Positions 263-57,937 of a stretch of DNA of 64,000 nucleotides are shown piece after piece. The first letter of the stretch is position 1. Each line of letters opens with the position of its first letter. The stretch is taken from positions 2,600,986 to 2,664,985 of the forward strand of contig NZ_LT745763.1 of NCBI RefSeq assembly GCF_900166595.1, read 5' to 3'. Source of the DNA: Virgibacillus dokdonensis. Lineage in GTDB: Bacteria; Bacillota; Bacilli; Bacillales; Amphibacillaceae. The position numbers were made by a program, and so were the translations under genes. The notes beneath the pieces were generated by a model. It did not search any database, was not told the DNA's origin, and was given only the letters and a program-made list of their open reading frames with translations.

Positions 263-2110
263 TTATTTTCCGATAAAGCGAAATAGATCACCAAGGATAA
301 TTTGATCCGAAGCATATAATTCATTTCTCGCCGTTTCTAAATAATCAGTACATGTATTTGATTTGACAACCTGTTGCTTGTGCTTATCATAACAACGACC
401 ATTTACATAAGCATATTTACCTGTGACGATGCTTCCATCGCGAAACACAACAGGGGCTTCATTACCTCTCGTAAATAGATTGCGACTAAAATTTATTTGC
501 TCCTTATCTCGTACACCCATTAATTCAGAAACAGTTGCATGAATATCAATCGTTCCTCCCACTGTTTCTATCTTTTTTCCTTCTTGTCCTGGTACATGGA
601 TAATTACTGGCACCTTTTGTAGCTCAAGGTGGCTCATTTCCGTATCCTCTTGCCCAAGTAATTCATAAACGCCAGCTTCGTATTTTTGGGAAATACCATA
701 ATGATCTCCATAGATAACAAACACTGTATCTTCATACATGTCTTTTTCCTTTACTAATTCAAAAAAACGTTTTAATGCTTCATCCTCATACCGAACAGTT
801 GTTACATATCGATTAACAACACCTACAGATGTATTCGCAGGTGAAATAGATTGATCCTCTTCTTCTAATAAAAATGGAAAATGATTCGTTAACGTAAGGA
901 AACTTGCCATATAAGGTTCAGATAAATGAAGTAATTTTTCCATTGATTGTTCAAAAAAGGGAATATCTTTTAACCCATAATTAACCGAATTTTCTTCTGT
1001 CACATGATAATCTTTTTTCGAGAAAAATCTATCAAACCCTAACGATTGATACATATCGTCTCTATTCCAAAAAGAAGCATCATTTCCATGAAAAGCAGCA
1101 GCCGTATAGCCATTTGCTTCTCGCAAGATATGCGGTAAAGATTGAAATTCATTGTTCGGTCTGCGAACAAATACAGATCCACTTGGTAAAGGATATAAGC
1201 CAGTATTAATCATAAATTCAGCGTCAGATGTTTTTCCTTGCGCTGCTTGGTCGTATATATTGTTAAAATAAAAACTGTCTTGAATCAGCTCATTTAAAAA
1301 TGGGGTTATTTCTTTGCCATTCACTTTTTGGTTAACCACAAAATTCTGTGTAGACTCTAAACTAATAAAAACAACATTCTTTCCTTTCGCTATTCCAAAT
1401 TCCTGAAACGAATCCTTTTCTTCCTTACCTTGGATATACGATTGTACTTCTTTTACATCTGCCTCATCTGCAAAAGCTTTCATTACGGGAGATTTAACAC
1501 CATTTGCTATATTTATCAGCTGATAATTATATAAACCTAATGACTTCACTAGTTCTTCACGATCGTAATCTGTTTGTAAAAGAAACGGATTTTGAATGAG
1601 CGCAATGGCCAAAGTAAAGACAAGCAACCCCACACCAGTAAAAGCATATCTTTTCTTATTAGGTACTACTGGATGGTTTTTCTTTCTGTTCATTTTAAAA
1701 ATAACATACCCAATAACTGCAACATCCACAAATAACAACGTATCAAGCGGGGAAAAGAGTTCAACCGTGCTAGGTCCTAAACCTCCTACATTGTTCAATT
1801 GTAGTAAAACAGAAACGGTAACAAAATCAATATAAAACCGATAATATAGCACATTTGCATACAATAAGCCTAACAATAATAGATAAATGATAAATAGCAT
1901 AAGTGGAGACAAACGTTTTCTCCACAAGAAACTAATCCCAAACATGATCATAATAATGCCAATTGGGTTGATAAAAACGACCATGATATCAAACCAAGAA
2001 TAAAGCGGTAGTTGAAAAGTAGTAAAAGAAATAATGACTGATTTTAACCATAATAAGATAATCAGCGTCATCAATACATTTCTTTCAATCAACAGAGTTA
2101 ATTTTCGCAT
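263..2110 (-). CDS. LTA-synthase-like membrane sulfatase-fold enzyme
   Basis: A 615-residue LtaS-family protein, close to the usual 640 or so. About five membrane segments fill residues 10-180, followed by an extracellular alkaline-phosphatase-superfamily domain. Expected active-site residues are visible: E252 (LESTQN), nucleophile T294 (GKTSDAEF), W348/R350, H410 (LTNHFPF) and D469-H470 (YGDHYG). LtaS enzymes transfer glycerol-phosphate from phosphatidylglycerol onto a glycolipid anchor outside the membrane. This gene is last in a three-gene coupled operon and its start overlaps the upstream gene by 13 bases. The partners, a PlsY-like acyltransferase and a GNAT/aminotransferase fusion, are not standard LTA genes. 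I infer a paralogue acting on a special lipid or polymer rather than the housekeeping LtaS. Confidence 0.85.
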   Translation of the reverse strand: MRKLTLLIERNVLMTLIILLWLKSVIISFTTFQLPLYSWFDIMVVFINPIGIIMIMFGISFLWRKRLSPLMLFIIYLLLLGLLYANVLYYRFYIDFVTVSVLLQLNNVGGLGPSTVELFSPLDTLLFVDVAVIGYVIFKMNRKKNHPVVPNKKRYAFTGVGLLVFTLAIALIQNPFLLQTDYDREELVKSLGLYNYQLINIANGVKSPVMKAFADEADVKEVQSYIQGKEEKDSFQEFGIAKGKNVVFISLESTQNFVVNQKVNGKEITPFLNELIQDSFYFNNIYDQAAQGKTSDAEFMINTGLYPLPSGSVFVRRPNNEFQSLPHILREANGYTAAAFHGNDASFWNRDDMYQSLGFDRFFSKKDYHVTEENSVNYGLKDIPFFEQSMEKLLHLSEPYMASFLTLTNHFPFLLEEEDQSISPANTSVGVVNRYVTTVRYEDEALKRFFELVKEKDMYEDTVFVIYGDHYGISQKYEAGVYELLGQEDTEMSHLELQKVPVIIHVPGQEGKKIETVGGTIDIHATVSELMGVRDKEQINFSRNLFTRGNEAPVVFRDGSIVTGKYAYVNGRCYDKHKQQVVKSNTCTDYLETARNELYASDQIILGDLFRFIGK

Positions 2111-3720
2111 GAATGAATCTCCTTCTCCCTAGCAAACTGTTGATATACCTCAACAATAATCTCTATGCCTTTCATGATATGCGAAGCTTGTTGTTGTCCC
2201 ATAATAGCCACTTGAAACCAGTTATGGTTTAGTAAATAACTGCTTTCATAACTAACTTGAACCCCTTTTTGTTTTAACACATCGCCGAACTGACGTGAAC
2301 GAATTTCAGGAGGTAGACAAACTGTCACAATGCCCGGAGAATAATTTTCTCCAGTAAGCACTTGCATGCCAACGCTTTGAAAGGCATTGCTTATATCTCG
2401 AAATAGCTTTGTTTTATCTGGACAAAACTGCTGTAACGCAGCTTGCATAGCAAACAAACTATTGGATGAATGCGTAAACGGAATACTATCGCTTGTTTGA
2501 TACCTACCAAGGTCTAAATAACTAGGTATTGAATTTTGTGGAAAAAGCTTCTCGTGATGAAACACAATAGCTAATCCCGGGTATGAACCGATACCTTTTC
2601 CACTTACCGTGCTTGCTAAATAAACAGACTCTAAATGAAGCGGTAGAACACCAACCGTACTGCAAGCATCTATACATAAACGGACACCATATTTGTTACA
2701 TAGCTGCTTTAAATCTTCCAATGGATAAACATAGCCTGTTGATGTCTCGCAATGGACAGTCCATAGCCATTCTATTTCTGAATGCTCCACCAATGTTCGT
2801 TTTATTTCTTCTAAAGTAATCGGTGCACTCCACGACTTAGAAATGCTTTGGAAAGAAAGGCCAAATCTAACAGCTTGATCCATTAAACGTTCTCCAAACT
2901 CGCCATTTGACAGAATTAACCCTGCACCTGGAAGTGTTGTTAATTGAGCAGCGATCATATCATTTGCAAGTGTACCTGTCCCTACTGCAATTTCTACATA
3001 ATTAGCATTGGTTACATCACATAATTGTTGCTGTACCTCTTCCATCACTTTATGTACATCCTTCGCACGATGAGATATTGCTTTATCACTCCATGCTTTT
3101 TTTACAGCATCAGAAACCTCTACAGGACCTGGTAAAAAATTATAATTCTCTTGCCGTGCTTCTTTTCGCAACATTCGTTCAAATAATTTAGAGGCACGCT
3201 CAAAGTTTTTCTTCGTTAAATACATGGGTTGATACGGGGCTTCTTCTGTTCCAACTAATGGTCCAAACGCTTTAAACCCTAAATGCTTATAGAGCTTGGT
3301 TTGCCTTAATGTTCCAGAAATAACCGCCATATTAAACCCTTTTTCCAAACAATAGTCTACTAACGTTTCACAGAGACCATAAAAGATACGCCCTCCTCGA
3401 TACTGCTTTTTTATAGCTAATAGACGTATTTCACAAGGGGTTGCAGATACAGGTAAATAATCATCCACATTATCTAATTTCTGGTCAAGCGAAAAAGGTC
3501 TTTGATTATGAACCGAAATCATGCCAATTACTTCCTTGCCTCGTTTAGCAATAACATATGTATTCTTATCGTCAAAACGGTCTACTAATCTATGGTCGCT
3601 GTTCTTTTCATGCTGTGGAATCTCTTCAACAAACGTTTCATAGTTTAAACGATAGATTTGCTCTAACTCTTCTTCTAAGTCTGCTATCTTATAAATTACA
3701 AAGTATGATTCTTTCACCAT
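2098..3720 (-). CDS. GNAT acyltransferase fused to class-V aminotransferase
   Basis: A 540-residue two-domain protein. Residues 1-170 look like the GNAT/autoinducer-synthase-like acyltransferase fold (EIRLLAIKKQYRGGRI, then LYKHLGFKAFG). Residues 195-530 are a PLP class-V aminotransferase resembling the aminoethylphosphonate-pyruvate/alanine-glyoxylate type. It opens with NFLPGPVEVSDAV, has a cofactor Asp at D351 (CIDACSTVG) and the Schiff-base Lys at K375 (TVSGKGIGSYPG). The start codon overlaps the upstream stop (TAATG), implying translational coupling. An N-acyltransferase joined to an aminotransferase, between a PlsY-like and an LtaS-like gene, suggests an amino-containing head group or N-acyl product. 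That role is inference. Confidence 0.8.
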   Translation of the reverse strand: MVKESYFVIYKIADLEEELEQIYRLNYETFVEEIPQHEKNSDHRLVDRFDDKNTYVIAKRGKEVIGMISVHNQRPFSLDQKLDNVDDYLPVSATPCEIRLLAIKKQYRGGRIFYGLCETLVDYCLEKGFNMAVISGTLRQTKLYKHLGFKAFGPLVGTEEAPYQPMYLTKKNFERASKLFERMLRKEARQENYNFLPGPVEVSDAVKKAWSDKAISHRAKDVHKVMEEVQQQLCDVTNANYVEIAVGTGTLANDMIAAQLTTLPGAGLILSNGEFGERLMDQAVRFGLSFQSISKSWSAPITLEEIKRTLVEHSEIEWLWTVHCETSTGYVYPLEDLKQLCNKYGVRLCIDACSTVGVLPLHLESVYLASTVSGKGIGSYPGLAIVFHHEKLFPQNSIPSYLDLGRYQTSDSIPFTHSSNSLFAMQAALQQFCPDKTKLFRDISNAFQSVGMQVLTGENYSPGIVTVCLPPEIRSRQFGDVLKQKGVQVSYESSYLLNHNWFQVAIMGQQQASHIMKGIEIIVEVYQQFAREKEIHSCEN

Positions 3721-4277
3721 TAGTCCCCATTTCTATGCATAATTACAACAACAGACAGCATTATAAAATAAACTACTGTCAACTCGATATTTCTAAAGAA
3801 AATGAACAAGTTTAACGGGATACTACTAAACCCAATCATCGCTATTAACGTAAGATTTTTATGAAGCTGATACCCTACCAAGATGATAAAACCACAAACA
3901 ACTAAAGGGATAGGTGCTAACATAAGTGCTGTAGCTAAGTATACAACTACTCCCTTTCCTCCACGAAAACCTAGTTGTACTGGCCATAAATGACCTAGGA
4001 GAAGGGCAATAGCCATACACCCTAATATAATCGTATCCATTTCCCAAAAGCTGATAGCTATCCATAACGGAATAATTACCTTCCATGCATCTATGATTAC
4101 TGTAACAATAAACGCAGAACGACTAAAGACCCTCCCCGCATTTCTAGCTCCAGCATTCGTACTACCTAATTCTCTAATATCTTGTTGATAAAATAGTTTA
4201 CCAACATAATAGGCGCCATTTAAACAGCCAAATACATAGGCAACCAAAATCCAAATCACTTTTTCCAGTGGCTTCAC
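3720..4277 (-). CDS. PlsY-family acyl-phosphate:glycerol-3-phosphate acyltransferase-like protein
   Basis: A 185-residue integral membrane protein. PlsY transfers an acyl group from acyl-phosphate to glycerol-3-phosphate. Motif 1 (GSTNAGARNAGR, near residue 38) and motif 2 (GHLWP...FRGGKGV, near residue 95) are present. The third family motif near the C-terminus is cut short: the protein ends at HRNGD. This suggests a diverged paralogue rather than the essential PlsY, which would be expected elsewhere in the genome. It is the first gene of the coupled operon with the GNAT/aminotransferase fusion and the LtaS-like enzyme. Confidence 0.8.
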   Translation of the reverse strand: MKPLEKVIWILVAYVFGCLNGAYYVGKLFYQQDIRELGSTNAGARNAGRVFSRSAFIVTVIIDAWKVIIPLWIAISFWEMDTIILGCMAIALLLGHLWPVQLGFRGGKGVVVYLATALMLAPIPLVVCGFIILVGYQLHKNLTLIAMIGFSSIPLNLFIFFRNIELTVVYFIMLSVVVIMHRNGD

Positions 4278-4480
4278 CCCACATCGAACATATTCCGATT
4301 CTCTTTATATTCTAACATTATAATCCAAAAAATTTTAGCTTTCCAAAAATTATTCTCAAATAAAACCAGTATGAATTTACCATAAAGTGTTAGAAAAAAT
4401 TGGCTTAGCCAAGTCATAATGGGGGAATGCTTCGTATTTTTTATGTGATAAACCAAAAAAACGTATGCTTTCCTTTAATG

Positions 4481-4517: not shown

Positions 4518-5063
4518 CTATTCTTCTTGAAATGCTCCAATAAACGATATAACGGTGCCTACTGCTTGTATCCAACTTCCTACAACCCCAATTATACGCT
4601 GATCAGACTGATTGTTTTGAAGCGTTTGAATGCCGCTTATTGCTTGTAAAGAGTTACCAATACCTTGCAATAATGCTCCGATAGTATTTTCCCACACACC
4701 CTTTGTGTGATCAGCCCATTCATCACTAGCAACTAGAAAACTCCCCAATGCCTGCATCCACAGTCCTGTTATAATCCATTTTTCTTTTGTTATAGGATCA
4801 GAAGAACGATAAATCAACATTCCTACTATTACAGTTGAATTGCCCGTAGCTTGAACTTGGTACCCTAATTTTTCAAAAGAAGCCGTGGTTTCCCCATCAG
4901 CAGTGACGCCGCTTCCTAGAGCTTGTAATACATTACCTATTAATCGAAGTTGAAAACGTTGATCTTTACTTAAAGATAACTGGGGAGTGCTACCGATTGC
5001 CGCTTGTATCGTTCCAATTGCCGAAAGAAGAGATCCCGTTATTTCCTTTAGATTAGATGTCAT
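4518..5063 (-). CDS. small repetitive protein of GNxLQALG-type repeats (DUF6944-like)
   Basis: 181 residues with no signal peptide. About six degenerate repeats of the form G-x-x-(L/I)-Q-A-(L/I)-G recur roughly every 25-35 residues: AIGTIQAAIG, NVLQALGSG, YQVQATGNS, WMQALGSF, LLQGIGNSLQAISG and WIQAVGTV. The repeats look like stacked amphipathic helices. It resembles a Bacillaceae repetitive protein family I recall as DUF6944, whose function is unknown. It follows the zorAB-like pair on the same strand after a gap of about 200 bases and has its own terminator, so it is probably transcribed separately. Confidence 0.65.
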   Translation of the reverse strand: MTSNLKEITGSLLSAIGTIQAAIGSTPQLSLSKDQRFQLRLIGNVLQALGSGVTADGETTASFEKLGYQVQATGNSTVIVGMLIYRSSDPITKEKWIITGLWMQALGSFLVASDEWADHTKGVWENTIGALLQGIGNSLQAISGIQTLQNNQSDQRIIGVVGSWIQAVGTVISFIGAFQEE

Positions 5064-5271: not shown

Positions 5272-5964
5272 CTACCCACCTAAAATCTCTCTTGTTTTAT
5301 CCAATATTTCTTCGTCCTTCAGTCGAAATTTGAATTCCACTCTACGGGAAGCTTCTGCACTATAATTCCCGTTCTCATCTGCTCTTACGTCGGAGAATGA
5401 TTTACTATTCACCGTTAATTTATTTGCTAAATGCTGCTGGATATTCTTGTATGGAAAATCATCACTTAATAGGTAGGCAGCAACACTATATGCTCTATTC
5501 TGTGCTAACTGTAAATTATATAAATACGACCCATCACGGTCCGTATGACCTTCAATAATGATCTCTGCAACATACTCTTCGTACCCTTCTTGCAACAAAA
5601 TATCCAAATATTTGGGTACAAATTCGTCTAAAAAAGTATAAGAGTTAGCCTTTAACTCGTGCTTATCATAGGCAAACAAAATCTCTGTGTTAAAAATGAT
5701 GGCGCCCGTCTTTTCGTCTACTTCAACACCTAATTCAGAACCACCGAACTCTTCTTTTAAGTCTTCCACTAACTTTGCTCGTACACCCATAATTTGGTCT
5801 AACGTCTTTTTCATTTCTTCTATTTGTAAGGATTTAATAATCATCATAGCAACAAAAATTAGAATAAAGCAAAGTAAAATCGTTGTAAGTAAGTCTGTAA
5901 ATGATGGCCAAAAATGTCCTTCGTCCCTATTCTGCCTAAATAAACGCTCATATTTAGTATTCAT
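5272..5964 (-). CDS. ZorB-like / MotB-OmpA membrane protein
   Basis: 230 residues. One membrane helix lies near residues 20-42 with Asp24 (FWPSFTDLLTT) at the position of the proton-carrying Asp of MotB-type stators. A linker follows, then an OmpA/MotB peptidoglycan-binding domain (EGHTDRDGSYLYNLQLAQNR, later EASRRVEFKF). Its start overlaps the 3' end of the ZorA-like gene by 11 bases. In Zorya anti-phage systems ZorB pairs with ZorA as a proton-driven motor anchored in the cell wall. No ZorC, ZorD or ZorE-type effector gene is adjacent. A flagellar MotB is unlikely because the partner is much longer than MotA. Confidence 0.75.
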   Translation of the reverse strand: MNTKYERLFRQNRDEGHFWPSFTDLLTTILLCFILIFVAMMIIKSLQIEEMKKTLDQIMGVRAKLVEDLKEEFGGSELGVEVDEKTGAIIFNTEILFAYDKHELKANSYTFLDEFVPKYLDILLQEGYEEYVAEIIIEGHTDRDGSYLYNLQLAQNRAYSVAAYLLSDDFPYKNIQQHLANKLTVNSKSFSDVRADENGNYSAEASRRVEFKFRLKDEEILDKTREILGG

Positions 5965-7783
5965 TTTGGTTCAGCCTTATCGCATTGTTTGAAGTGTAAT
6001 TACGTTGAGAAAAAGCAGCCAATTGTTGGTTTAACATGTGAATTTCCCGCTGCAGATCCTGTACGCTTTGTTGGATTGCCCTTACTTGATTTTGCTGTGT
6101 CGTGTCATTCATTCTTCTTAGTTCATTCCATTCATTTCGCAGCCCTTCATTTACTTCACGCATGGACGCTTGGAGAGCTTGACCAATTTGATCTAATCGT
6201 TTTCCTACAGACCCTTCCAGATTATGAACATAATTGGCTAACGTATCCTTTAATATATGCACACTATTATCCAACTGGTTCTCGCGTTGCTGATGTGTTT
6301 GCGTCATTTGGGAAATGGTTCCATTTATTTCTTGTAACAATTGACTATTTTTCATATCCATTTGTTCAAAAGAACTTATCGTTTGCTGCAAATGTTTTTC
6401 AAATGCCATCGTATTTGTAGCCTGTGATTTTATATGATTGCTAAATGTACGGTTAAATTCTTTTAATTCTTGGAAACGATCCGATAATAAATGTTTATAT
6501 TCTGCTTGCGTTTGGTTAATGACTTCAAGTGCATTTGGAAGCTGTGTTAAACCATCTCCCATTTTATCAAATTCTCTCGACAATCCATATAGTTGTTCAA
6601 TTACACCTGATAGCTTTGTCGATAGATCCGCACCAAATATGGACCTAAATTCTTTGTTCTGTGCCTCCATTTGCACAACGAGTTGTTTGCTCTTTTCCTG
6701 TATCGAGGCGAAATTCTGTTGTAACGATGCCTGTTCATCTAATAAAGTAGATGTGAATTGTTTTATTTCCTCTGTAGAATCTAAAAAATTTTGCAACATG
6801 TCCATTTGCGAAATCGTTGCTTCTTTTATCTTCTCATACGTTTGTTCGAACGCTTTTACCTGTCGTTCGTTATGGCTATCCATACGTTTGAAATACGTAA
6901 ATAATGTAGCAAAATTTTCGTTTAGATTGTCCGTTCCCGCAGCAAAACTATCGGTTACTTTTTGCATATGTGTAAATAATTGCTGAAATGATTCGAGATT
7001 ATCTGAAAGCCCATGATTAAATGCAGCTAAGTCTTTAGCGGATTGTTCCAAACTTGAGGTGTAATTTTGAAATCCAGCAAAGGCGGCTTCTATTGTTTGA
7101 AAGGACTGTTGATTCGACTTTTGTAAATGCTGTATGGACGTATTAATCGCCTCTGAAAGGTTTACTAATTGTTGCAGTCCATTTTCCTCTGTGCCTTCTA
7201 ATCTCGTCTCCGTCATAAGCATAATATCTGTTAACATAAATTCTGTATTAAATACCTTTATTAATACCGTCATCACTAATGAAAATCCCATCCCAACAAT
7301 GCTCGTATAAAAAGCAACATCAATACCGGCTAATACACTTGCTACCCCTGTAACCACATCATTTCCTTGTAAATCAATACTACTTAAAGAAGAGGTTAAG
7401 CCAATAAATGTGCCAAGTACTCCTAATAATATAAACACAGACACAGTCATTTGCACCATTTTAATGAGACTAACGACAGAAATTTGCCATATACGCCAAT
7501 TCGAAAATTGCTCTTGAACAAATGTCTCCACTTTAACCATTTCTTGTTTTTGCTTTTGTTCATATTGTTCTTTCAATGTATTTAACGGCTCTACATTCAA
7601 ATTCCCCGTTGCTTTCAGGTGATTTCTGATCGTTTTTAATTTATTGTAAATGGTAATATGAATCAGCAAAGCCAATAGAAACATGACAAACAGGACAACA
7701 AAAATAAACTCAATAACGGAGCTGCTTAAAATAGCTTCCACTCTTTGTTTTGATGTAAATAATTCAAGAATAAATTCAACCAT
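5954..7783 (-). CDS. ZorA-like MotA/TolQ/ExbB channel protein with long coiled-coil tail
   Basis: 609 residues. Hydrophobic helices lie near residues 20-45, 105-135 (VFILLGVLGTFIGLTSSL, the MotA/ExbB signature) and 150-180. Residues 200-600 are almost entirely heptad-rich and Gln/Asn/Ser-rich coiled coil. MotA is about 260-290 residues, so the long cytoplasmic tail fits ZorA, where it carries the phage-sensing signal. The gene is first in a two-gene unit with the ZorB-like protein. What it would signal to is not visible nearby, so defence is inferred from architecture only. A different ion-driven cell-envelope role is possible. Confidence 0.75.
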   Translation of the reverse strand: MVEFILELFTSKQRVEAILSSSVIEFIFVVLFVMFLLALLIHITIYNKLKTIRNHLKATGNLNVEPLNTLKEQYEQKQKQEMVKVETFVQEQFSNWRIWQISVVSLIKMVQMTVSVFILLGVLGTFIGLTSSLSSIDLQGNDVVTGVASVLAGIDVAFYTSIVGMGFSLVMTVLIKVFNTEFMLTDIMLMTETRLEGTEENGLQQLVNLSEAINTSIQHLQKSNQQSFQTIEAAFAGFQNYTSSLEQSAKDLAAFNHGLSDNLESFQQLFTHMQKVTDSFAAGTDNLNENFATLFTYFKRMDSHNERQVKAFEQTYEKIKEATISQMDMLQNFLDSTEEIKQFTSTLLDEQASLQQNFASIQEKSKQLVVQMEAQNKEFRSIFGADLSTKLSGVIEQLYGLSREFDKMGDGLTQLPNALEVINQTQAEYKHLLSDRFQELKEFNRTFSNHIKSQATNTMAFEKHLQQTISSFEQMDMKNSQLLQEINGTISQMTQTHQQRENQLDNSVHILKDTLANYVHNLEGSVGKRLDQIGQALQASMREVNEGLRNEWNELRRMNDTTQQNQVRAIQQSVQDLQREIHMLNQQLAAFSQRNYTSNNAIRLNQNEY

Positions 7784-11353: not shown

Positions 11354-12778
11354 TTATTCAGAGTTAACATCTACAAAAGGGGATTTACACAAAATTATTG
11401 ACACACCCGTCCATTGAGCAACCCCTGATAAACAGATTATAAAAATAGCCCAAAGTAAATTTATTAATACAATAAGTAGTAATGGCTGTTCTATTAATTG
11501 CTTTAGTCCATTAAAAGATAAAAAGATGCCAAATCCAAGAACAATCATTAACATCACCCGTCCAATTTGATTCACCATAACATCCCGCTTTTTTATGTGT
11601 ATTGCCTCATGTGCTAAAATAGCCTTCACTGCAGACCAGGATAATTTCGTTGTTGCGCTAGTCAACATTATCGTCCCTTTTCCAATGTGCGTACCCGTTG
11701 CAAAACCGTTATATACATCAGAGTCAATCACATATAATCTAGTGCCTGTTATTCCAGCCTTCGAAAAAATTTCCTGGGAAATATGATATAACTCTCCCGC
11801 TGTAACTTCTTCTGCGTCTGAAGCATTAATGAGTAGTCGGTCTGCAATATACATATTAAACAGCCACCATAGAAATACAAAAACAGTAATAACATACCAC
11901 GGACAATGAAGAAAAATCAAAATAGTTAATAACGCTGTATATGCAGCAACACCTTTAACGCTAATTGCAAAATAGCCTTTCCATAACAAGCGCTTTATAT
12001 TGCTCCTATGCCAGATTGGAAGAATATTTTTTTCCGTTTCTACTTGGTCTACTTGGATAAAACGATTCCAGTACATGTACCACGCCTCTACATTTACAGG
12101 TGTTAAATACATTGTTTCTCCAGAAAAAGTTAAACGCAATACGGTTGAAAATGAAATTGTATAATCTTTTCGTTCAGCTAAAAAGGCAAAACTAGGATGA
12201 AGTCTTAAAATATCTGGATTAGATTGTTTTTGAATAGCTTCTAAATGTTCCATTGGCAATTCTCTTGCTTCAAGTAAGGAGATAATGACCAGCACTTGTT
12301 CCTCAGGTAACATATACACCTTGGCAAAGAAATAATCTACCAAGCGGTTCAAGAATGGTGGAAGCATCAAAATTAAATAGTAGCCAAGTAGATACTTAAG
12401 TGTATTGATCATTTCTGGAATAAAAAGAAGACAAATAACGGAAACTCCTGCTATTGCACCAGCTAAACAAATATCCATCAAAATTCGCCTAACATCTCTT
12501 TTCAGTTCAACGATCTGAAAGTTTGTAACCGAAAGCTTTTGTTGTAATTGCTGTTTTTTCAACTTTTTGTCATGGTCAAAGACAACACTAAAACTAAAAT
12601 AGGTGACAAACATCACACTAAGTGGCAAGACTGCTTCGAAAAATTCATTCGTCATGAGTAAATATACGATCATACTACAACTGCCGATAAGAAGTAGCCC
12701 TACACTTACTTTCTTTGGAAGAATGAAAGAAATACAGGTAAGTAAAATAGTAATAACACTTATGATAAAGAGTTGCAT
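11354..12778 (-). pseudogene. 5' part of M48 (HtpX/BlaR-like) membrane metallopeptidase, IS-truncated
   Basis: Genuine peptidase sequence runs from 12778 to about 11417; the reading frame then enters the IS end and stops at 11354. Several membrane segments (residues 5-70, 105-145, 275-320) precede the zinc motif HEAIH (residues 390-394 from the chosen start), with another hydrophobic hairpin after it. The start is the ATG at 12778, because GGAGG lies eight bases upstream; the in-frame TTG at 12793 is part of that ribosome site. The third zinc ligand lies in the severed 3' fragment. It is the last gene of the response regulator-kinase-lipoprotein operon, so it may have been a signalling or quality-control protease. 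Confidence 0.88.
11409..11416. repeat. right target-site duplication GTCCATTG
   Basis: Second copy of the 8-bp duplication, directly outside the right inverted repeat of the IS256-family element. Confidence 0.9.
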
Positions 12779-12793
12779 ATTCTTTTCCTCCAA

Positions 12794-13897
12794 TTAAGGG
12801 ACAAATTTCATTTTATTTACGAATTGTTTGATTTGGTTCAAACTTAAATCTGCATCCATTATCATGATAGAATAACGCAGACCTTGTTCGTCCCATAACA
12901 ACATTTGATACGTATCATCCTCCGTATACACCCCATCCACGCCTCGGAATGTAATCCGCTTTTCATTTGACGCTGTAAACGTTTCAATGTCATTATTATC
13001 TTCATTTGGTATTGGAAAAACAGACAAATTGAATATCGGTATGTTGTTTTTCGTATAATCCATGCTTACTTCCATACGCGAAAATTCACCTGCCAGTTCA
13101 ATTAGTTCAACATTACTTAACACTATATCTTCTGCTTCAGGCACATATAAGAATGTACTTCCCATTTGTTCACGTGCTTCTTCTAAAGTAACTTTGCGAT
13201 TTGAATTTAACTCATTCATATTTTTAACTTCTACATCTTTTGGTAATTTCAAGGAGTATTTCTCATCAGCTATATCTGCTTCAAAATTAATTTGGTTATA
13301 TTCTGTTTCTACTGTTTGGTTTCCTATCGTTGCATTCATTTTTAAAACAATCCAGTTTTCCTTATCTATCCATAACTCTTGTCGACCATATAATTGATCT
13401 TTAGCTTTAGGTTCAGCGATGACGAGTTGCGTTTGGCGACCAGCTATCTTCTGTTCTTTTCCCGTTCTTATTTCATGTGTTTTTGAAATTTGTTCTAAAA
13501 TAAAGTTCACTTGATCCATAGGGGATGGTTGATTTAATGCAAGCATTTCTTGGTCATCCATGATGAGAGCTTGTTTTTGCTTTGGTTCGTAACTAATTAA
13601 AGATGCGCCATCATTAACGGCAATAGATATGGGCTCTTCTTTATTGCCTTCTATTTCCACACGAATTTTGCCTGTACCGTCTCGCCATTCTTTCATTACA
13701 AACCGTTCTACTTCTGTTTCATTTTCTTTCGTTACCGTTGTCGACTCTCCATAATAAGCTACATTTGTTTCTTTTTCAGTAGTTAATACTTTATTAACCA
13801 TTTCCTTTGGAGAAAATTGATTTGAATCTGGTGTACACGCTGACAATATGATTCCTCCCATGAGGCAGATTAAAATACTTACCTTATATTTTTCCAT
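12794..13897 (-). CDS. secreted lipoprotein, LolA/RseB-like with DUF4367-like C-terminus
   Basis: 367 residues from the ATG at 13897, chosen because AAAGGTGATCG lies just before it. A lipoprotein signal peptide ends in LSAC. The middle region (FILEQISKTHEIRTGKEQKIAGRQTQLVI, later RQELWIDKENWIVLKM) has the LolA/RseB-like beta-sheet pattern. The last 100 residues resemble DUF4367 (LLWDEQGLRYSIMIMD, LSLNQIKQFVNKMK). It sits four bases downstream of the kinase gene and ends one base before the TTG that opens the next frame, so it is in the same operon. It may be an extracytoplasmic partner of the kinase or the peptidase. Confidence 0.75.
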   Translation of the reverse strand: MEKYKVSILICLMGGIILSACTPDSNQFSPKEMVNKVLTTEKETNVAYYGESTTVTKENETEVERFVMKEWRDGTGKIRVEIEGNKEEPISIAVNDGASLISYEPKQKQALIMDDQEMLALNQPSPMDQVNFILEQISKTHEIRTGKEQKIAGRQTQLVIAEPKAKDQLYGRQELWIDKENWIVLKMNATIGNQTVETEYNQINFEADIADEKYSLKLPKDVEVKNMNELNSNRKVTLEEAREQMGSTFLYVPEAEDIVLSNVELIELAGEFSRMEVSMDYTKNNIPIFNLSVFPIPNEDNNDIETFTASNEKRITFRGVDGVYTEDDTYQMLLWDEQGLRYSIMIMDADLSLNQIKQFVNKMKFVP

Positions 13898-13901
13898 ACG
13901 A

Positions 13902-15362
13902 TCACCTTTCCAAAGTTTGAGGCAACATACAAACAACACATGTACCTACGTTTTTTTGGGAGAAGATATGTATCCACCCTCCATGCTCTTCAATTACTTG
14001 TTTTGCAATACTTAACCCTAAACCATTTCTTTGAAATTCTTGCTTACTCCTCGCTGGATTATGTTGATAAAATGGCTCAAACACATGAGGTAAAACCGCC
14101 TCATCTATCCCTTTTCCTTCGTTTTGTATTAAGATGAAAACCCCCTCTTCCCCTTGCCCTTTCCAATCCACATTTTGACGCACAAAGGAATATGTCCAAT
14201 CTGGCAAGTCCCATGATACAACTCCTAACCAAATATTTCCATAAGTAGCAGTATGGGAAATTGCATTGCTCACAAGATTATCCATCACACGTATCATTTG
14301 GTTTGGGTCTACCTTGTATTTCCCTTTGACTTGCAAAGAAACATGCAAGTCAATCCCTTTTTGTTTACAAAGAGTTTCAAAGTCTGAGGTTAACATGTCA
14401 AAAAATTCTTCCCCATCTACTAAAGCCAACTCCAGCTGCTTTTCTGATGAGCGCAACATCGTGTAGGTTAATAAATCATCAAGCATTGCTTTTAGAAAAT
14501 CTGTTTTTTCCATAATGATATGCAAATATTCCTTCTGTTCTTTTACATGGATATCTTTTTCAAATACTAATGACTCTGCGTATGCTTTAATGGAAGTCAA
14601 CGGTGTTTTTAAGTCATGAGATACGCTAGCAACTAAGTATTCCTTGGCTTGCTGTTCTTGCTTAGCTATTTTTCTCGCCTTATTTATTTGTCTACTCATA
14701 ACATAAAAATGTGCTGTTAATTCCCCCATTTCATCTTTTTTCGTCTTTCTTTCATGTATTGATTCCCCAGCAGCAAATCGTTTTATATCATTAATAAGCT
14801 TCTTCAATGGACGTACTATTTTTTTATTCACAAACAGGACAACTAACGTATAAATAACAATAAAAATAATACATAAACCTACACCTACTAAAAGTGCTCG
14901 ATTCGTAACTCCCTTCACCCATTGTTCTCTAGGGATTTGTATTTCAAAAAATCCAATTAGTTTATCTTTCATAAATACAGGTTGACGATAAGTATAAGAA
15001 CGGTAGCCTTGTTCTAATTCGTATAGACCTTCATACAACTGCTTTTTTCCATATTTTTGAAAAGTTGAAGTAACAGATGAATGAGATGCATACATAACTA
15101 TGCCATCTTTATTTAGTACAGTAACAGCTTGATTCTTATCTATATTTTGCTTCATTTTGCCCCAATCGCTATTAAACTCGTATAATTCTGGGTCAACAAG
15201 TAATGCCTTTAATGTCGTTATTTCCTCTACCGTTTCAATATGTTCTTGTATTTTCAGTTCATCATGGTACCCTTGTATGAATAAAAATAATAAATAACCT
15301 GCCATTACAGGAAGGACCATAACAACAAAATAAGATACCAGAAGCCATGTTTTTATTTTCAT
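13902..15362 (-). CDS. sensor histidine kinase
   Basis: 486 residues. Membrane helices lie near 7-30 and 157-178 and enclose an extracellular sensor of about 125 residues. A HAMP linker (about 180-230), the phospho-acceptor H249 in SHDLKTPLTSIKAY, and the N box (NLVSNAISHTA), G1 (NEGKGID) and G2 (NGLGLSIAK) follow. The start overlaps the regulator stop as ATGA. With the regulator it forms an OmpR/EnvZ-class two-component system. The signal is unknown. The downstream lipoprotein and broken peptidase suggest a cell-envelope theme. Confidence 0.92.
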   Translation of the reverse strand: MKIKTWLLVSYFVVMVLPVMAGYLLFLFIQGYHDELKIQEHIETVEEITTLKALLVDPELYEFNSDWGKMKQNIDKNQAVTVLNKDGIVMYASHSSVTSTFQKYGKKQLYEGLYELEQGYRSYTYRQPVFMKDKLIGFFEIQIPREQWVKGVTNRALLVGVGLCIIFIVIYTLVVLFVNKKIVRPLKKLINDIKRFAAGESIHERKTKKDEMGELTAHFYVMSRQINKARKIAKQEQQAKEYLVASVSHDLKTPLTSIKAYAESLVFEKDIHVKEQKEYLHIIMEKTDFLKAMLDDLLTYTMLRSSEKQLELALVDGEEFFDMLTSDFETLCKQKGIDLHVSLQVKGKYKVDPNQMIRVMDNLVSNAISHTATYGNIWLGVVSWDLPDWTYSFVRQNVDWKGQGEEGVFILIQNEGKGIDEAVLPHVFEPFYQHNPARSKQEFQRNGLGLSIAKQVIEEHGGWIHIFSQKNVGTCVVCMLPQTLER

Positions 15363-41948: not shown

Positions 41949-42101
41949 TTCTTCTTCTTGTGATGTATTTGCCTTCAGCTCATTTATTTCCTCTTGTTGT
42001 GCGGTAATTATAGCCTCATGATAGGCTTTTTCTTGTGAAAGCTGTGCTACTTGATTACTTAATGCATTTACTACATATTGTAAATTAACTTCTTGTTCCA
42101 T
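41937..42101 (-). CDS. short coiled-coil tail-operon protein
   Basis: 54 residues beginning MEQEVNLQYVVNALSNQVAQ and ending QEEENAE, all helical and acidic. Its ATG shares one base with the stop of the tail-spike gene (TAATG), and GGAGAATCC precedes it, so it is translated by coupling. Small coiled-coil proteins directly after tail fibres or spikes are common in phages of Gram-positive hosts and may aid fibre assembly. Specific role unknown. Confidence 0.75.
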   Translation of the reverse strand: MEQEVNLQYVVNALSNQVAQLSQEKAYHEAIITAQQEEINELKANTSQEEENAE

Positions 42102-45100
42102 TAGGATTCTCCTTTTATAATTTTTTCAAGTTCATCAATACGCTGTTGTTGGTATTTTAGTGCTCCTGCAATAACGTTTATATAGTTGTCTTGTACTAAA
42201 GCATCACCTTGCTCGTCCAATATTTCTTTTGGGCTTTCTTCTGCTATAGGACCATAGCTTTTTCTACATCTAGAGCTTTGTTTATCATCATTTTTATAGT
42301 GATATGATTTAATTTTTATTTGATCGAAAATGTTTTGCGCCATTTCTGGTGCAAAATCATTAATATTTTCTTTCATGTCTCTTGTGGATAGCTTTATTGT
42401 GTCTTTGCAATGAAGATAATTTGTATATACTCTCCATAGTCTCCTAGATTTTATACCTACATAGCCCCCTGCACTTCTATTACTGTAAATGCGTGGATGC
42501 CAATCTCCATCACCATCTTTATAATCATTAAACTCCCAGTAGTTACTAGAAGGCCCTTGATTAAACCAAAATCTATGTGCGTCTGCCTTATATAACATTC
42601 TCTTGCCCGAATAAAGAGATGTTGACACATCATTATTTTGACTACCAATTATAAAGTCGTTGTTAACATTCATTCCGACACTAGCTGCATCGCTACCATT
42701 ACCACTGAAAAACCTTATCGTACTAGGGTCAGACTGCCCTTTGCCAGCTATATCACGTACGCCAATGTGTATCCTTACCCTGCCCCTGCTATCGACTGAC
42801 TCAAATCCTTTATCGTCTATTTGGATAGCCTGTGTACCATTTTTAACACGTATTAGCACCTTGTTCGCATCTATGATACCAGATTTAATTTTATCGGCAG
42901 TAACACTAGAGATCATTGCATTGGTTACTCTTACGTTGGCTATCTTAGCAAAATCTATTTTGGCATTACTTGCAATAAGGTCATTGGTAATTACGCCATC
43001 CTTAATATAAACTTTCCCGTTTCTAACAACTAAATCACCATCGATGGAAACGCGTTGCGCATTAATTTTAATCTGTTCGGGAGATTGATTAATACTGGAT
43101 ACAACGCCATTTTTACTTACTTTTGACTCAATACGGTCAGCGTGTTGTTTAATAGTTGATTCGGCTGTACTAACGCGCATGGTCATATTATCCATGTCTT
43201 TGTTATAAGTAGTTTCCGTTACCTTTCCCTCAATCAAGTCCGCTTGCTGTTTAAACGTGGAGTTAGCCGTACTTTTAAACTTTTCGTAGTCCGTTTTAAT
43301 TGCTGAAAATTCTTGCTCGACACCTTTAGCTGTTTGCTCAATTTCTGATGCGTAGTGTTCAACGGATTCGATTTTTTTATCGGTGTCTTCGGGTGCTGGC
43401 GTCCAATCGGTTGCCTTGTTTCCTTTTTCAGCCATTTCGTGTTTAATTTCGAATAAAAGTTCGGATGCATCGGAACCAGCATCGCTTCTTTGCACAGCGA
43501 AATTTAGCTTATAGCAATCCTCTGGAATGATTGCAGTATGAGTTAATCTTTTTTCTTCTCCCGGATATATTTTTTTTTCTCCGCGATTTGATTCGTGGAA
43601 TCTGCCATCAGGATAAAACCAAGTGAATCTAGGGTTAATATATGCTGGTGCATCTTTAGGTAATTTTGCCGTAAAAGATAATGTTATTTCATCCCCTGGC
43701 TTCAAACCCATTTCCTCTAAGTCTCTTGTTTGGATGTGATAGTACCAGATACCTGCTTTTACAGTTTTATAAGATTGATTACTGTTTATAATTAAATTCC
43801 TTCCACCAACCTCTATCTTACCCAGCTCGCCTTTAACATAAGTTGCATCGACTTTACTTCTAATCATATCCGCCTGTTGTTCGATGGTTGATTTATTACT
43901 GTTGATGTCGGTAATTATACCTTGCTTATCGGTGTTGTAAGTGGTGTTATCAACCTTGCTTGCTATGCCCTCAGCGTTAATTTGTATGGCAGCACTATTT
44001 TTATTTATTGACGTCTCAAGGCTTTGTTTATCTTGTTTATATTGCTTATTATCAACTTTAGCAGTAATATCTTTTTCCGTTTGGATAATGCGAGATTCAT
44101 GACTTTCTAAGTCTCTTATAATGCCATCTTTATCCTTTTTATACTGTTCGCCAGATACCTTACTAGCTATTTCCTTGGCATTTTGCGTAATGCTAGATTC
44201 AGCACTTTCAACCCTACCTGTTATGACATTTACAGTCTCAAGTTCTGCCTTAGACTTTATTTCTTTTGCGTTTTGAGTGATAGATGTTTCCGCAGTGTCA
44301 ACTCTATTTTTTAAAGAGTTATATTCCGTACTCGATGCTTTAGATTCTATTTCTTTTTCGTTTTGCTTTATCATCGTTTCGTGACTTTGCAAATTTTCAA
44401 CAATGCCGTCTTTATCTGTCTCATAAGTGGTTTTTGATACAACATTATTAAAGCGAGTATCTACCTGTTCAATCGTGTAAACATCGTCTTTGTTAACTTT
44501 GCTTACCAGTTGACCATTCACCCACTCCGCATTTACTTTTTCGGCAAGGTCTGCCTTAACCTCGTCAACGATTTCCTTATCAGCTTTCTTGACCAGTTGC
44601 CCATTTACCCATTCGGCGCCAACCTTATCAGCTAAATCGGAAACAATTTGACTTACTTTTTCCTGGTAATCTTCCATAGCTACCGCACCAAGTTCATCAG
44701 CACTTGTAGGAGCAAGTGGTTTCCAATCCTCACCATTCCAGTGACGTAGGATATTAGGTTCTTTGCTGGTATCCAACCAATACTTATAATCTTTAGGACT
44801 AGGTGCTTCCTTGCCTTTGTAAATGCTGTATTCGATAAAGTCAGGAACAATATCCTCTATATCTGGTAAGTCTAGTTGCACGGTTGAAGCACTAACCTGC
44901 TCTGAATACTCACTTGCTGTGCCATGCGTATTAACAGCTCTTACTCGGAAATACCATTTTTCATCCGTATCAGCATCAAAGTTATAGCCACCTACTTTCC
45001 CACGGAAAACAAGGTTTGTAGGATCGGGAGCAAATCCATTGGTTTTACTAGCGAACACCTCATATGCAGCTATGGCGTAAGTAGATTCAAATGTCCATGA

Positions 45101-46372
45101 CAGCATAATCTTTTTAAACAAGCCCTCAGCTCTTACGTTTTTAGGAACATCAGGTTTTACATCTGGAAACTTGTCATCCGTAATAGGGCCACCGCCAGCA
45201 TCCCAGTTGCCTTCTTTGTCCTTCACTTTGTCAATAACCCAATCAATATCACTGTCATCTGGGTCTAGGTCTAAGATGTTACCTAAAACAAGACTACCGT
45301 CCTCGGGATTGCCGATATCATATTTCCACGACATGATACGCGCCTCTATCAATATCATAGGCTTAATATCTTTGTCTCTAGCAATGCCTGTATCACCAAG
45401 AAACACCTGTTCATGTTCATATCCAGATATGCCGTAAAATGTGATAATATCCATTTCATACTGTGCTTTTGGTTCCTTCTCATCCTGCACAGCCTGCCAT
45501 GTTTTAGCGAGTAGTTTTTCTGGATCTTCTTCCTCGCTATCCTCGAATAATCCAAATCGGTGCATCATTTTGCCTGTTTGGTGGTTAGGTATGCCATGAC
45601 TTTCTAATGCATCCGGATCTCCTACCCACTCCTGCCCTTTTGGCTTATCTACTGGATCACCTTTTTTCTTAGACCAAACAACGTCCCTAAATGTAATTTT
45701 TCTTGTATAGCCTTCATTTTCTGTTTGCAATGATTTACCTTTTCCGTATAAGGCTGTTTTCGGATAGTAAAGCACTGTCCTTGTGATATTTTTAATATCC
45801 TTATCAATCTCAAACCTTTTCCCCGTATCTGATCCCTTACGATGGACAATATCAACATATCTACCAGCAATCTTATTGCCTTTAATCTCGACACGATCAA
45901 CGACTTCTCCGCCCCAAATATCGGTAAGTTCTCCCAAACATTCATAGGCGTTTTTAAAGTAGAAACTAGTGGAGTTTATACCAAGATCAGCCACATTACC
46001 AACTTGCCAGCGTGCATTTTCCAAAATCAGACCTAAAACATATGCAGCATCTTTATCCTGTGGTCTACGTTCCTCTACCATGACATCAGCTAACTCCTGT
46101 ATACCCGGCATACAATTAACAATCTTTTCAGTAGCTTCGCCGTCTCTGTCGTCTACTTCTCTAATCGTAAACAGGCGGAAATCTCCTTTTAAATCACGAA
46201 AAGCCACTTGATTACCACCAACTAAATACTCAGCATCGCTATCAGATGCAGGGTAATTGATTAAAAAAGAGACAGGCATTTCTACCGTCTCCTCGAAATC
46301 AGCTTTTATATAGTTGTCAGTGATTGCTAGCAAGTTATCGTATTTGTCAAAGATATATAATTTTTCTTTCAC
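42101..46372 (-). CDS. tail-associated spike/fibre protein with S74-type C-terminus
   Basis: 1423 residues from the GTG at 46372, placed by AGGTGG eight bases upstream. The N-terminal 390 residues are the tail-hub (Prophage_tail/Tal-like) domain (FRDLKGDFRLFTIREVDDRD). A fibronectin-III-like domain follows near 410-510 (VPKNVRAEGLFKKIMLSWTF), then about 400 residues of coiled-coil repeats (TDKDGI..L.SHE..I.Q.EKEI..K). A carbohydrate-binding-like module (GGRNLIINSNQSY to KATDWTPAPED) precedes a C-terminal intramolecular chaperone domain (STRDMKENINDFAP, YGPIAEE) that normally cuts itself off after trimer folding. It is the probable host-binding protein. Confidence 0.88.
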   Translation of the reverse strand: MKEKLYIFDKYDNLLAITDNYIKADFEETVEMPVSFLINYPASDSDAEYLVGGNQVAFRDLKGDFRLFTIREVDDRDGEATEKIVNCMPGIQELADVMVEERRPQDKDAAYVLGLILENARWQVGNVADLGINSTSFYFKNAYECLGELTDIWGGEVVDRVEIKGNKIAGRYVDIVHRKGSDTGKRFEIDKDIKNITRTVLYYPKTALYGKGKSLQTENEGYTRKITFRDVVWSKKKGDPVDKPKGQEWVGDPDALESHGIPNHQTGKMMHRFGLFEDSEEEDPEKLLAKTWQAVQDEKEPKAQYEMDIITFYGISGYEHEQVFLGDTGIARDKDIKPMILIEARIMSWKYDIGNPEDGSLVLGNILDLDPDDSDIDWVIDKVKDKEGNWDAGGGPITDDKFPDVKPDVPKNVRAEGLFKKIMLSWTFESTYAIAAYEVFASKTNGFAPDPTNLVFRGKVGGYNFDADTDEKWYFRVRAVNTHGTASEYSEQVSASTVQLDLPDIEDIVPDFIEYSIYKGKEAPSPKDYKYWLDTSKEPNILRHWNGEDWKPLAPTSADELGAVAMEDYQEKVSQIVSDLADKVGAEWVNGQLVKKADKEIVDEVKADLAEKVNAEWVNGQLVSKVNKDDVYTIEQVDTRFNNVVSKTTYETDKDGIVENLQSHETMIKQNEKEIESKASSTEYNSLKNRVDTAETSITQNAKEIKSKAELETVNVITGRVESAESSITQNAKEIASKVSGEQYKKDKDGIIRDLESHESRIIQTEKDITAKVDNKQYKQDKQSLETSINKNSAAIQINAEGIASKVDNTTYNTDKQGIITDINSNKSTIEQQADMIRSKVDATYVKGELGKIEVGGRNLIINSNQSYKTVKAGIWYYHIQTRDLEEMGLKPGDEITLSFTAKLPKDAPAYINPRFTWFYPDGRFHESNRGEKKIYPGEEKRLTHTAIIPEDCYKLNFAVQRSDAGSDASELLFEIKHEMAEKGNKATDWTPAPEDTDKKIESVEHYASEIEQTAKGVEQEFSAIKTDYEKFKSTANSTFKQQADLIEGKVTETTYNKDMDNMTMRVSTAESTIKQHADRIESKVSKNGVVSSINQSPEQIKINAQRVSIDGDLVVRNGKVYIKDGVITNDLIASNAKIDFAKIANVRVTNAMISSVTADKIKSGIIDANKVLIRVKNGTQAIQIDDKGFESVDSRGRVRIHIGVRDIAGKGQSDPSTIRFFSGNGSDAASVGMNVNNDFIIGSQNNDVSTSLYSGKRMLYKADAHRFWFNQGPSSNYWEFNDYKDGDGDWHPRIYSNRSAGGYVGIKSRRLWRVYTNYLHCKDTIKLSTRDMKENINDFAPEMAQNIFDQIKIKSYHYKNDDKQSSRCRKSYGPIAEESPKEILDEQGDALVQDNYINVIAGALKYQQQRIDELEKIIKGES

Positions 46373-46374
46373 TC

Positions 46375-46707
46375 CTACAACCACCTTTCCGTATATTCAA
46401 CCTCTAATTGCATTGTTGGCACCGTCTTAATCTCGTTATATCCCGGCTCCAATTTAAAAAAATCTGCATAACGCAGATCGACTGTTTCCATTTGCAAACG
46501 TCCATTAATAAATACTTTACGCTTGTCAAAGTCTATTTTTACCACATCGTTTTTCTTAAAGTTATAATGTATTCGCAATATCTCATCTCTGCAACTAAGC
46601 TGCATATAAGGTATTTCATCTTTAATAACAGCCATAATAAAAGGTGCTGTATCAGCTGTACCTTTGACAGTAACCTCATTCGTTTGAGACATTTCAATCC
46701 AACGCAT
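46375..46707 (-). CDS. C-terminal half of the distal tail protein (Dit), split gene
   Basis: 110 residues resembling the second domain of siphovirus distal tail proteins: TVKGTADTAPFIMAVI, VVKIDFDKRKVFINGRLQ, a D-F-F-K-L-E-P-G-YN turn and the final EVEYTERW. Normally this follows the N-terminal Dit domain in one chain of about 250 residues. Here the N-terminal domain is a separate gene (47221-47688) and a coiled-coil gene lies between them. The start overlaps the coiled-coil stop (TAATG) after GAAGGTGAA. Confidence 0.75.
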   Translation of the reverse strand: MRWIEMSQTNEVTVKGTADTAPFIMAVIKDEIPYMQLSCRDEILRIHYNFKKNDVVKIDFDKRKVFINGRLQMETVDLRYADFFKLEPGYNEIKTVPTMQLEVEYTERWL

Positions 46708-47231
46708 TAAGCTTCACCTTCTGGTGGGGTTTCGGATTCTTTCAGTAAGTTTTCTAAAGCTGTAAGGCGATTGCCATATTCGGTTAATTGAGTTTGCATT
46801 GCTTCAATAGAATTTTTATTTTCCTGTGCTTTGCTTTTTACCTCGCTTAAACCATTCTGAATAACATCTAAAGTTTGGTTAATAGTTGCAATGTCCTTAT
46901 TAATTTCACTAATGTTGCTTTCGTTTGCGTTGATTCTGCTTTTATTACTAGCAATCTCACTTTTGTTAGTAGCCACATTTTTGTTTACTGTAGATAAACC
47001 ACTCTCTAATGTAGATACGTCTTTTTTAGTATTATCTAAGCTTGATCGCAAGTTAGAAACGTCCTGCTTGGTCTTATCTAAACTAGATTGCAATGACGCC
47101 GTTTTATCCTGCAACTGTTTTGTGGCTGCGTCTATCTTATCCGCATTTTGTGCAAAGTTAGCAATAGATACGTCTATCTTGTCCGTTATTTCTGGCTTTA
47201 CTAGTTTTAAATTTGGTGTATTAAGAGCCAA
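46707..47231 (-). CDS. coiled-coil protein inserted between the Dit halves
   Basis: 174 residues. The N-terminus ALNTPNLKLVKPEITDKIDV, with NADKIDAATK, resembles the start of phage tail-fibre/baseplate proteins that dock on the tail. The rest is an almost unbroken Asn/Ser/Lys-rich coiled coil (STVNKNVATNKSEIASNKSR), ending TPPEGEA. Both junctions with the Dit pieces overlap (11 bases upstream, one base downstream), so the three are translated together. Confidence 0.7.
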   Translation of the reverse strand: MALNTPNLKLVKPEITDKIDVSIANFAQNADKIDAATKQLQDKTASLQSSLDKTKQDVSNLRSSLDNTKKDVSTLESGLSTVNKNVATNKSEIASNKSRINANESNISEINKDIATINQTLDVIQNGLSEVKSKAQENKNSIEAMQTQLTEYGNRLTALENLLKESETPPEGEA

Positions 47232-47688
47232 TTAAATCCCTCCAACTCTGTCCTGCATATTCTTCCCAAGTATATTTTTTTAAAGCGATTGTTTTGTGGG
47301 GTTGACCGTATTTGTATGGGTCTGGGCAAACAAAGTTAATTGTTCCATTACCCCAATAAGTCAATTCTTCTAAATCCAGCCCACCTTCAACAGCAGCATA
47401 ATAAGTACGATCTGGTTCATCACTAAATATCAACGCTTTAGGTTCTTTAGTCACCAACCAAGCCGCCATATCTTCTTTTACTTTTTGCAAGTCAGGTATT
47501 CCGTCATGCTCTATTAAAACAGGAACAGTTATTTCTCTAACTTCCATCCCTGTTCTAATTAATTTTTCACCAGCAAGTCTAGGGTGTTTTGTCGTCACCC
47601 TATTTAATGGCGCCCATGCAGGTCTTTCTCTACCTCTTATAATCTTTATATAAGGTTTTTTAATACCATTAAACGTAAAATAATTCAA
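47221..47688 (-). CDS. N-terminal half of the distal tail protein (Dit), split gene
   Basis: 155 residues of the siphovirus distal-tail type: YFTFNGIKKPYIKIIRGRER, EVREITVPVLIEHDG, KEDMAAWLVTKEPKALIFSD, and the marker FVCPDPYKYG. It ends LIGS where a normal Dit would continue into its second beta-sandwich. It follows the tape-measure gene by 14 bases. Dit forms the hexameric ring joining the tail tube to the baseplate. Confidence 0.8.
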   Translation of the reverse strand: MNYFTFNGIKKPYIKIIRGRERPAWAPLNRVTTKHPRLAGEKLIRTGMEVREITVPVLIEHDGIPDLQKVKEDMAAWLVTKEPKALIFSDEPDRTYYAAVEGGLDLEELTYWGNGTINFVCPDPYKYGQPHKTIALKKYTWEEYAGQSWRDLIGS

Positions 47689-47702
47689 TTAAATCAGCCC
47701 TC

Positions 47703-51605: not shown

Positions 51606-51630
51606 TTTACCTCCTCTCTTTGGAGATAAT

Positions 51631-51664
51631 AAAAAGCCCTAACCGCCAAACGCGGCGATTAAGG
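51631..51664 (-). terminator. hairpin at the end of gpGT, before the tape measure
   Basis: Minus strand CCTTAATCGCC-GCGTTT-GGCGGTTAGGG (11 bp with G-U pairs) followed by CTTTTT. It spans the stop codon of the frameshifted gpGT reading frame and could lower transcription into the tape-measure gene. Confidence 0.7.
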
Positions 51665-52186: not shown

Positions 52187-52206
52187 TTTATTTCCTCCTA
52201 AATATA

Positions 52207-52234
52207 AAAGAGCAAGGGATTTACCATGCTCTTA
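52207..52234 (-). terminator. hairpin between the collagen-like gene and gpG
   Basis: Minus strand AAGAGCA...TGCTCTT stem followed by TTAT, overlapping the end of the gene at 52232. Probably a partial terminator or mRNA-processing hairpin. Confidence 0.5.
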
Positions 52235-53403: not shown

Positions 53404-53434
53404 ATTAATCACTCCTTAAAATAAAATAGTCAGC

Positions 53435-54867: not shown

Positions 54868-54872
54868 TCAGA

Positions 54873-56006: not shown

Positions 56007-56023
56007 TTCCATTCTCCTTTGTT

Positions 56024-57933: not shown

Positions 57934-57937
57934 CTCC

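Follow-up and report, generated by a model that had tools for sequence, protein, structure and literature searches.

Which product could be made by an enzyme of phospholipid acylation, an N-acyltransferase fused to an aminotransferase and a relative of lipoteichoic acid synthase when their genes overlap, and which of the three belong together? The question is raised by a 64,000-nucleotide stretch of the Virgibacillus dokdonensis genome (the window; contig NZ_LT745763.1), where the minus strand encodes a PlsY-like acyl-phosphate acyltransferase (4277-3720; GTG start, 185 residues, third motif shortened to HRNGD), a fusion (3720-2098; 540 residues) of a GNAT domain resembling FeeM and the acyl-homoserine lactone (AHL) synthases to a class-V pyridoxal phosphate (PLP) aminotransferase, and a paralogue of the LtaS family of glycerol-phosphate transferases (2110-263; 615 residues). 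The fusion ATG and the PlsY stop codon have one base in common, and the LtaS-like and fusion genes overlap by 13 bases; these overlaps, together with the conserved gene order, suggest a single operon of three genes. An original prediction made from this DNA had placed the overlapping genes here and proposed that they make an acylated, amino-bearing lipid or a modified polyglycerol-phosphate polymer, an interpretation that our analysis supports in part.

The family names given in that prediction are borne out by Pfam matches over curated cut-offs. The PlsY-like protein matches G3P_acyltransf (PF02660; 117 bits, cut-off 24.1); residues 20-159 of the fusion match FeeM (41.1, cut-off 27), PF13444 (29.9, cut-off 22.4) and Acetyltransf_1 (38 bits, over its cut-off), and residues 213-389 match Aminotran_5 (36 bits, over its cut-off), with the GNAT domain spanning approximately residues 8-185, the aminotransferase approximately 190-530 and the PLP lysine aligning at K375. 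The third protein matches Sulfatase (144 bits, over its cut-off). All three are diverged members of their families, since they score below the corresponding NCBIfam cut-offs: 93.9 versus 137.2 bits for the PlsY equivalog (TIGR00023), 153.6 versus 360.8 bits for 2-aminoethylphosphonate transaminase (PhnW, TIGR03301), the nearest NCBIfam model to the C-terminal part of the fusion, and 637.9 versus 970 bits for the LtaS equivalog (NF053595). The nearest named genome, Virgibacillus chiguensis, is approximately 99% identical over the genes of the unit and 99% over the fusion.

A PlsY paralogue and the fusion form the conserved core

We searched 299 genomes of the order, from 114 genera, calling the fusion with a profile (A1) at E <= 1e-80. 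It was present in 48 genomes, from 21 genera. In all 48, by coordinates, a same-strand PF02660 gene lies directly upstream of the fusion; an LtaS match lies directly downstream in 26. Thus, of the co-occurrence expected by the original prediction, the PlsY part stands, LtaS is not a fixed partner, and the fusion is not found mostly without its neighbours as far as PlsY is concerned. The conserved core is therefore two genes, a divergent PlsY paralogue followed by the GNAT-aminotransferase fusion, and this partnership is solid. A nearer sample gave the same picture (fusion in 13 of 61 genomes, PlsY upstream at 12 of 12 loci besides the window's own), as did a phylum-wide draw of 398, in which the two fusions besides that of the window's genome both follow a PlsY gene and precede one for MscL. 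A species-wide scan gave 30 named loci, of which 20 have an adjacent PlsY and 6 an adjacent LtaS. We rejected a larger operon: beyond the fusion (30 loci) and PlsY (20), no gene cluster is common to more than seven of these loci. Among plasmid records, 356 matched the Gemella fusion; of the matches listed, one (Cytobacillus spongiae) covers at least 80% of the query and the other nine cover the aminotransferase part.

The adjacent PlsY belongs to a special clade. The window's genome has four PF02660 genes and all 48 fusion genomes have at least two, each with one or more matches besides the adjacent one, which confirms the protein as a paralogue and rules it out as the only PlsY; of 47 fusion-free relatives, 37 have a single match and the other 10 several, in one case (G020) through a sub-cut-off fragment only. 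We placed 113 PlsY proteins in a maximum-likelihood tree (midpoint-rooted, with several long branches, that of L144 extreme; four of 117 rows, L035, L070 and two of L081, were dropped from it and from the residue counts as shorter than 170 residues). All 53 rows labelled adjacent group in a 63-row clade (support 96/98), which we call PlsY2. The remaining ten comprise the window's own copy from a cut locus (L004), one that is adjacent by coordinates (L014, genome G050), seven unlinked copies and one (L143) from genome G039. The tree lacks 15 of the 48 adjacent PlsYs, and that of G300 was read only as a 123-residue frame; in profile comparisons each of the 48 scores better with the clade than with housekeeping or DUF456-linked PlsYs. 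In the fusion-free genomes, 17 best PF02660 copies (177-182 bits) were taken as housekeeping by score, the 23-bit G020 fragment was left unclassed, and the 11 full extra copies score best as housekeeping or DUF456-linked, except that of G039. A clade PlsY thus tracks the fusion, being found in 48 of 48 genomes with it and in one of 47 without.

The association extends to genomes in which the two genes are apart. Ten of the named loci lack an adjacent PlsY; we searched nine of the corresponding genomes (all except that of L037) and found an unlinked clade copy in seven, with the fusion elsewhere in the genome: Planomicrobium/Planococcus (L135-L137), Psychrobacillus (L141), Gemella (L139 and L140) and Bacillus sp. 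REN3 (L145). An uncultured Firmicutes metagenome-assembled genome (MAG; L045), in which no clade PlsY was found, holds the GNAT part of the fusion only. The unlinked PlsY2 sits behind an LPG_synthase_TM-family gene in the two Gemella loci; this family corresponds to the membrane-embedded part of the lipid flippase MprF. In the three Planococcus-group loci and in Psychrobacillus it adjoins a gene of the DegV family, to which FakB proteins belong. The acyl-phosphate that FakB proteins pass on can serve as a PlsY substrate (PMC10146087).

Two further PlsY-family observations lie outside the clade. A third PlsY clade (L085, 6111-8666; L086, 5199-5816) adjoins an LtaS paralogue in G255 and a DUF456 gene in the window's genome, and in G056 (L144, 5407-7127) a very divergent PlsY-family gene overlaps a glycosyltransferase family 2 gene. 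In G709, from the phylum-wide draw, the PlsY gene upstream of the fusion (L083, 6540-7121) is broken by an in-frame stop, through decay or sequencing error.

Substrate-contact residues of PlsY2 and the predicted lipid

In A. aeolicus PlsY, as described in part of PMC5700162, the phosphate of glycerol 3-phosphate (G3P) is clamped by Ser35, Arg45, Lys104 and Asn180, and the 2-hydroxyl is touched by Ser142 and His177. Most of these contacts are kept in the 63 clade rows (Ser35 in 62, Arg45 in 59, Lys104 in 60 and His177 in 60). In contrast, Ser142 is replaced in every row (Gly 48, Ala 8, Met 5, Phe 2), versus Ser in 43 of 50 other PlsYs, and Asn180 is kept in 26 of 63, versus 49 of 50. The clade has its own signature (Phe53 in 63 of 63, Gly45 in 61 and Arg42 in 51; L001 numbering). 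The window's protein has Ala at the Ser142 site and lacks Asn180, there being no Asn three residues after the His of HRNGD. Its shortened third motif, noted in the original prediction, is real, since the protein ends in HRNGD and its closest relatives do likewise. Judged from these residues, an acceptor carrying an amide-held chain instead of the 2-hydroxyl would explain the losses of Ser142 and Asn180.

The N-terminal domain of the fusion has the fold and length of the N-acyl amino acid synthase FeeM and of the AHL synthases LasI and BjaI. Unlike these, it is fused to an aminotransferase, and a single polypeptide therefore probably also makes the amine. The original prediction regarded such a fusion as unusual; it is instead of a known kind. 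Gemella haemolysans has a full-length homologue (38% identity), and hm-NAS N-acyl synthases, which belong to PF13444 (part of PMC9762135), are listed in review passages as N-acyl-serinol synthases of Gemella, Bacillus sp. 2_A_57_CT2 and Desulfitobacterium hafniense DP7, with Cohen et al. 2017 as the source. What appears to be new here is the dedicated PlsY and the pathway that it implies; the PlsY2-fusion pair was not found in the open-licence papers searched for this gene combination or for serinol-phosphate lipids.

We propose that the operon encodes a branch off phospholipid synthesis that ends in an amide version of phosphatidic acid, a reading that we consider evenly poised between right and wrong. 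The aminotransferase domain would turn dihydroxyacetone phosphate (DHAP) into serinol phosphate. The FeeM-like domain, for which N-acyl transfer is supported by family and fold, would then move a long acyl chain, presumably from acyl-acyl carrier protein (acyl-ACP), to the amine, giving N-acyl-serinol phosphate, the amide analogue of lysophosphatidic acid. PlsY2, whose partnership with the fusion is established, would place a second chain from acyl-phosphate on the free hydroxyl, and the product of the unit is thus most simply predicted to be N,O-diacyl-serinol phosphate, which corresponds to phosphatidic acid with one chain held by an amide and would need no PlsC. The LtaS paralogue of Virgibacillus and its relatives might conceivably use this lipid or its dephosphorylated form as a glycerol-phosphate acceptor or anchor at the outer membrane face. 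The scheme resembles the PlsX-PlsY-PlsC route in that the ester chain would come from a PlsY-type acyl-phosphate acyltransferase; it differs in that a GNAT domain would attach the other chain, as an amide, ahead of PlsY, in the absence of PlsC and in the changed G3P-binding residues. A broader version, in which we have less confidence and which we offer tentatively, is a parallel phospholipid route of Bacillota: one polypeptide would make N-acyl-serinol phosphate from DHAP, and a dedicated PlsY that no longer has the Ser touching the 2-hydroxyl would esterify it to '2-amido-PA' without PlsC, feeding amide phospholipids or lipoteichoic acid anchors.

If correct, the proposal would define a phospholipid class with one amide-held chain, reached by a two-protein route that skips PlsC, an unusual membrane lipid built from a common intermediate of sugar breakdown. 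N-acyl-serinol synthases, which the reviews consulted discuss as sources of ligands for host receptors, would acquire a function in membrane lipids, and their association with a special PlsY in 21 genera of a single order would be accounted for.

Several observations weigh against this proposal. The reported hm-NAS product is N-acyl serinol without phosphate; the assayed Gemella or Bacillus gene may not be the present fusion. The fusion is not adjacent to PlsY in the Planococcus-group, Psychrobacillus, Gemella and REN3 loci, and at the unlinked REN3 copy neither DegV nor LPG_synthase_TM was recognised among the neighbours scanned. G039 carries a clade PlsY with no fusion found, and a Bacteroidia MAG (L034) carries the fusion with no clade PlsY found. 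The 26 clade members that retain Asn180 fit poorly, as does the window's own protein, which has Ala and not Gly at the Ser142 site, Ala being frequent there in PlsYs at large (33%). Finally, the neighbours that we scanned include no recognisable CDP-alcohol or head-group enzyme.

Other possible products and the LtaS paralogue

The alternative that survives best, although we think it unlikely, is that the product of the fusion is a free N-acyl serinol amide, serving as a signal or surfactant, while PlsY2 merely tunes the pools of acyl-phosphate or lysophosphatidic acid. The review passages indeed name the free amides N-palmitoyl serinol and N-acyl serinol as products of hm-NAS, expressed in E. 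coli, and name no PlsY or LtaS partner, and no PlsY lies beside the fusion in the Gemella and Planococcus-group loci. The Virgibacillus fusion, in contrast, is tied to a special PlsY, which accompanies the fusion even when unlinked (seven of the nine genomes searched) and whose clade has lost G3P-holding residues; moreover, the E. coli host presumably lacks PlsY2, and synthesis there would then stop at the amide.

That PlsY2 is a second ordinary G3P acyltransferase, sustaining phospholipid synthesis while the fusion drains acyl-ACP, appears improbable. Its PF02660 match and the retention of most clamp residues would fit this function. However, Ser142 is absent from the whole clade and Asn180 from most of it, the window's protein misses the PlsY equivalog cut-off, and the A. 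aeolicus enzyme, in the same part of PMC5700162, loses more than 92% of its activity with G3P upon alanine substitution of clamp residues and more than 95% when Asn180 is changed to Asp.

We also see little chance that the unit serves to modify or initiate a polyglycerol-phosphate polymer with LtaS as its key enzyme, the second option of the original prediction. The LtaS paralogue keeps the catalytic residues: it has five hydrophobic stretches (Kyte-Doolittle) followed by a C-terminal catalytic domain, and T294, E252, D469/H470, W348, R350 and H410 align with the residues of 2w8d, 4uoo and 2w5q that we take to be the catalytic Thr, Glu and Asp/His and the glycerol-phosphate-binding Trp, Arg and His. 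It is also distinct from the genome's other LtaS proteins, for in a tree of 37 LtaS (matches from fusion-free genomes left out) the 14 fusion-linked rows fall outside the 16-row clade holding the other two. Two of the 14 (G050 and G022) branch next to that clade, and the unlinked LtaS of seven fusion genomes without a linked copy fall near the other twelve. However, 22 of the 48 fusion genomes have no adjacent LtaS, and homologues of 46-50% identity occur in 4 of the 47 fusion-free genomes; LtaS is thus a frequent neighbour and not a core member, and a polymer is at most a use of the product in some lineages, the lipid half of the original prediction being the one that our reading supports. 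LtaS is likewise weakened as a marker of the pathway, since 13 of the 47 fusion-free genomes (these four included) have a match at E <= 1e-155, none of them among the 26 of the window's own family.

A phosphonolipid, with the aminotransferase handling 2-aminoethylphosphonate and the GNAT domain N-acylating it, is very improbable and disfavoured: the aminotransferase scores far below the PhnW cut-off, the Arg of the C-terminal RVG motif, which we take to bind substrate and which is present in 7e7g and 1vjo, is Gln in 139 of the 140 aligned rows with a residue there, and phosphoenolpyruvate mutase is over its cut-off in none of the 48 fusion genomes (weaker matches to the model in 15). The same nearly invariant Gln sets the fusion apart from PhnW, PSAT and probably Cj1437, where Arg is usual.

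Neighbouring genes and related records

A promoter-like match (TTGGAA-18-TATAAT, 4317..4346, minus strand) lies approximately 40 bases before the PlsY start, in a scan where such sites were no commoner than in shuffled sequence (16 versus a mean of 19.7). Just upstream of the operon, a DUF6944 protein is encoded at 4518-5063 (minus); of the loci compared, L006 and L018 alone have it close to the unit (98% copies).

In the Bacteroidia MAG (L034, 1134-5190), the fusion converges on a gene, possibly a substitute for PlsY2, that joins AMP-binding (acyl-activating) and carrier domains to a PlsC-type acyltransferase domain. PDB entry 9os7, a methionyl-tRNA synthetase of Mycoplasma penetrans, has an aminotransferase-like domain resembling that of the fusion (E 1.2e-39 to profile A1); it has N-terminal ancillary domains and aligns with the fusion past the aminotransferase.

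Further along the minus strand of the window are a gene pair (5272-7783) like ZorB (PADLOC ZorB1, 231.8 bits) and, weakly, ZorA (best 51.6 bits), without a further recognisable Zorya gene in the few neighbours scanned; a row encoding an M48-type peptidase with a bacterial PH domain, a MucB/RseB-like protein and a histidine kinase (11354-15362); and a prophage with tail, minor tail, capsid and large terminase genes (42101-59608). The ZorA/ZorB-like pair recurs in V. chiguensis (L018) and in L019, a record titled Roseburia sp. 1XD42-34 that has the Virgibacillus gene order with 71-91% protein identity over approximately 9 kb and is probably a mislabelled Virgibacillus.

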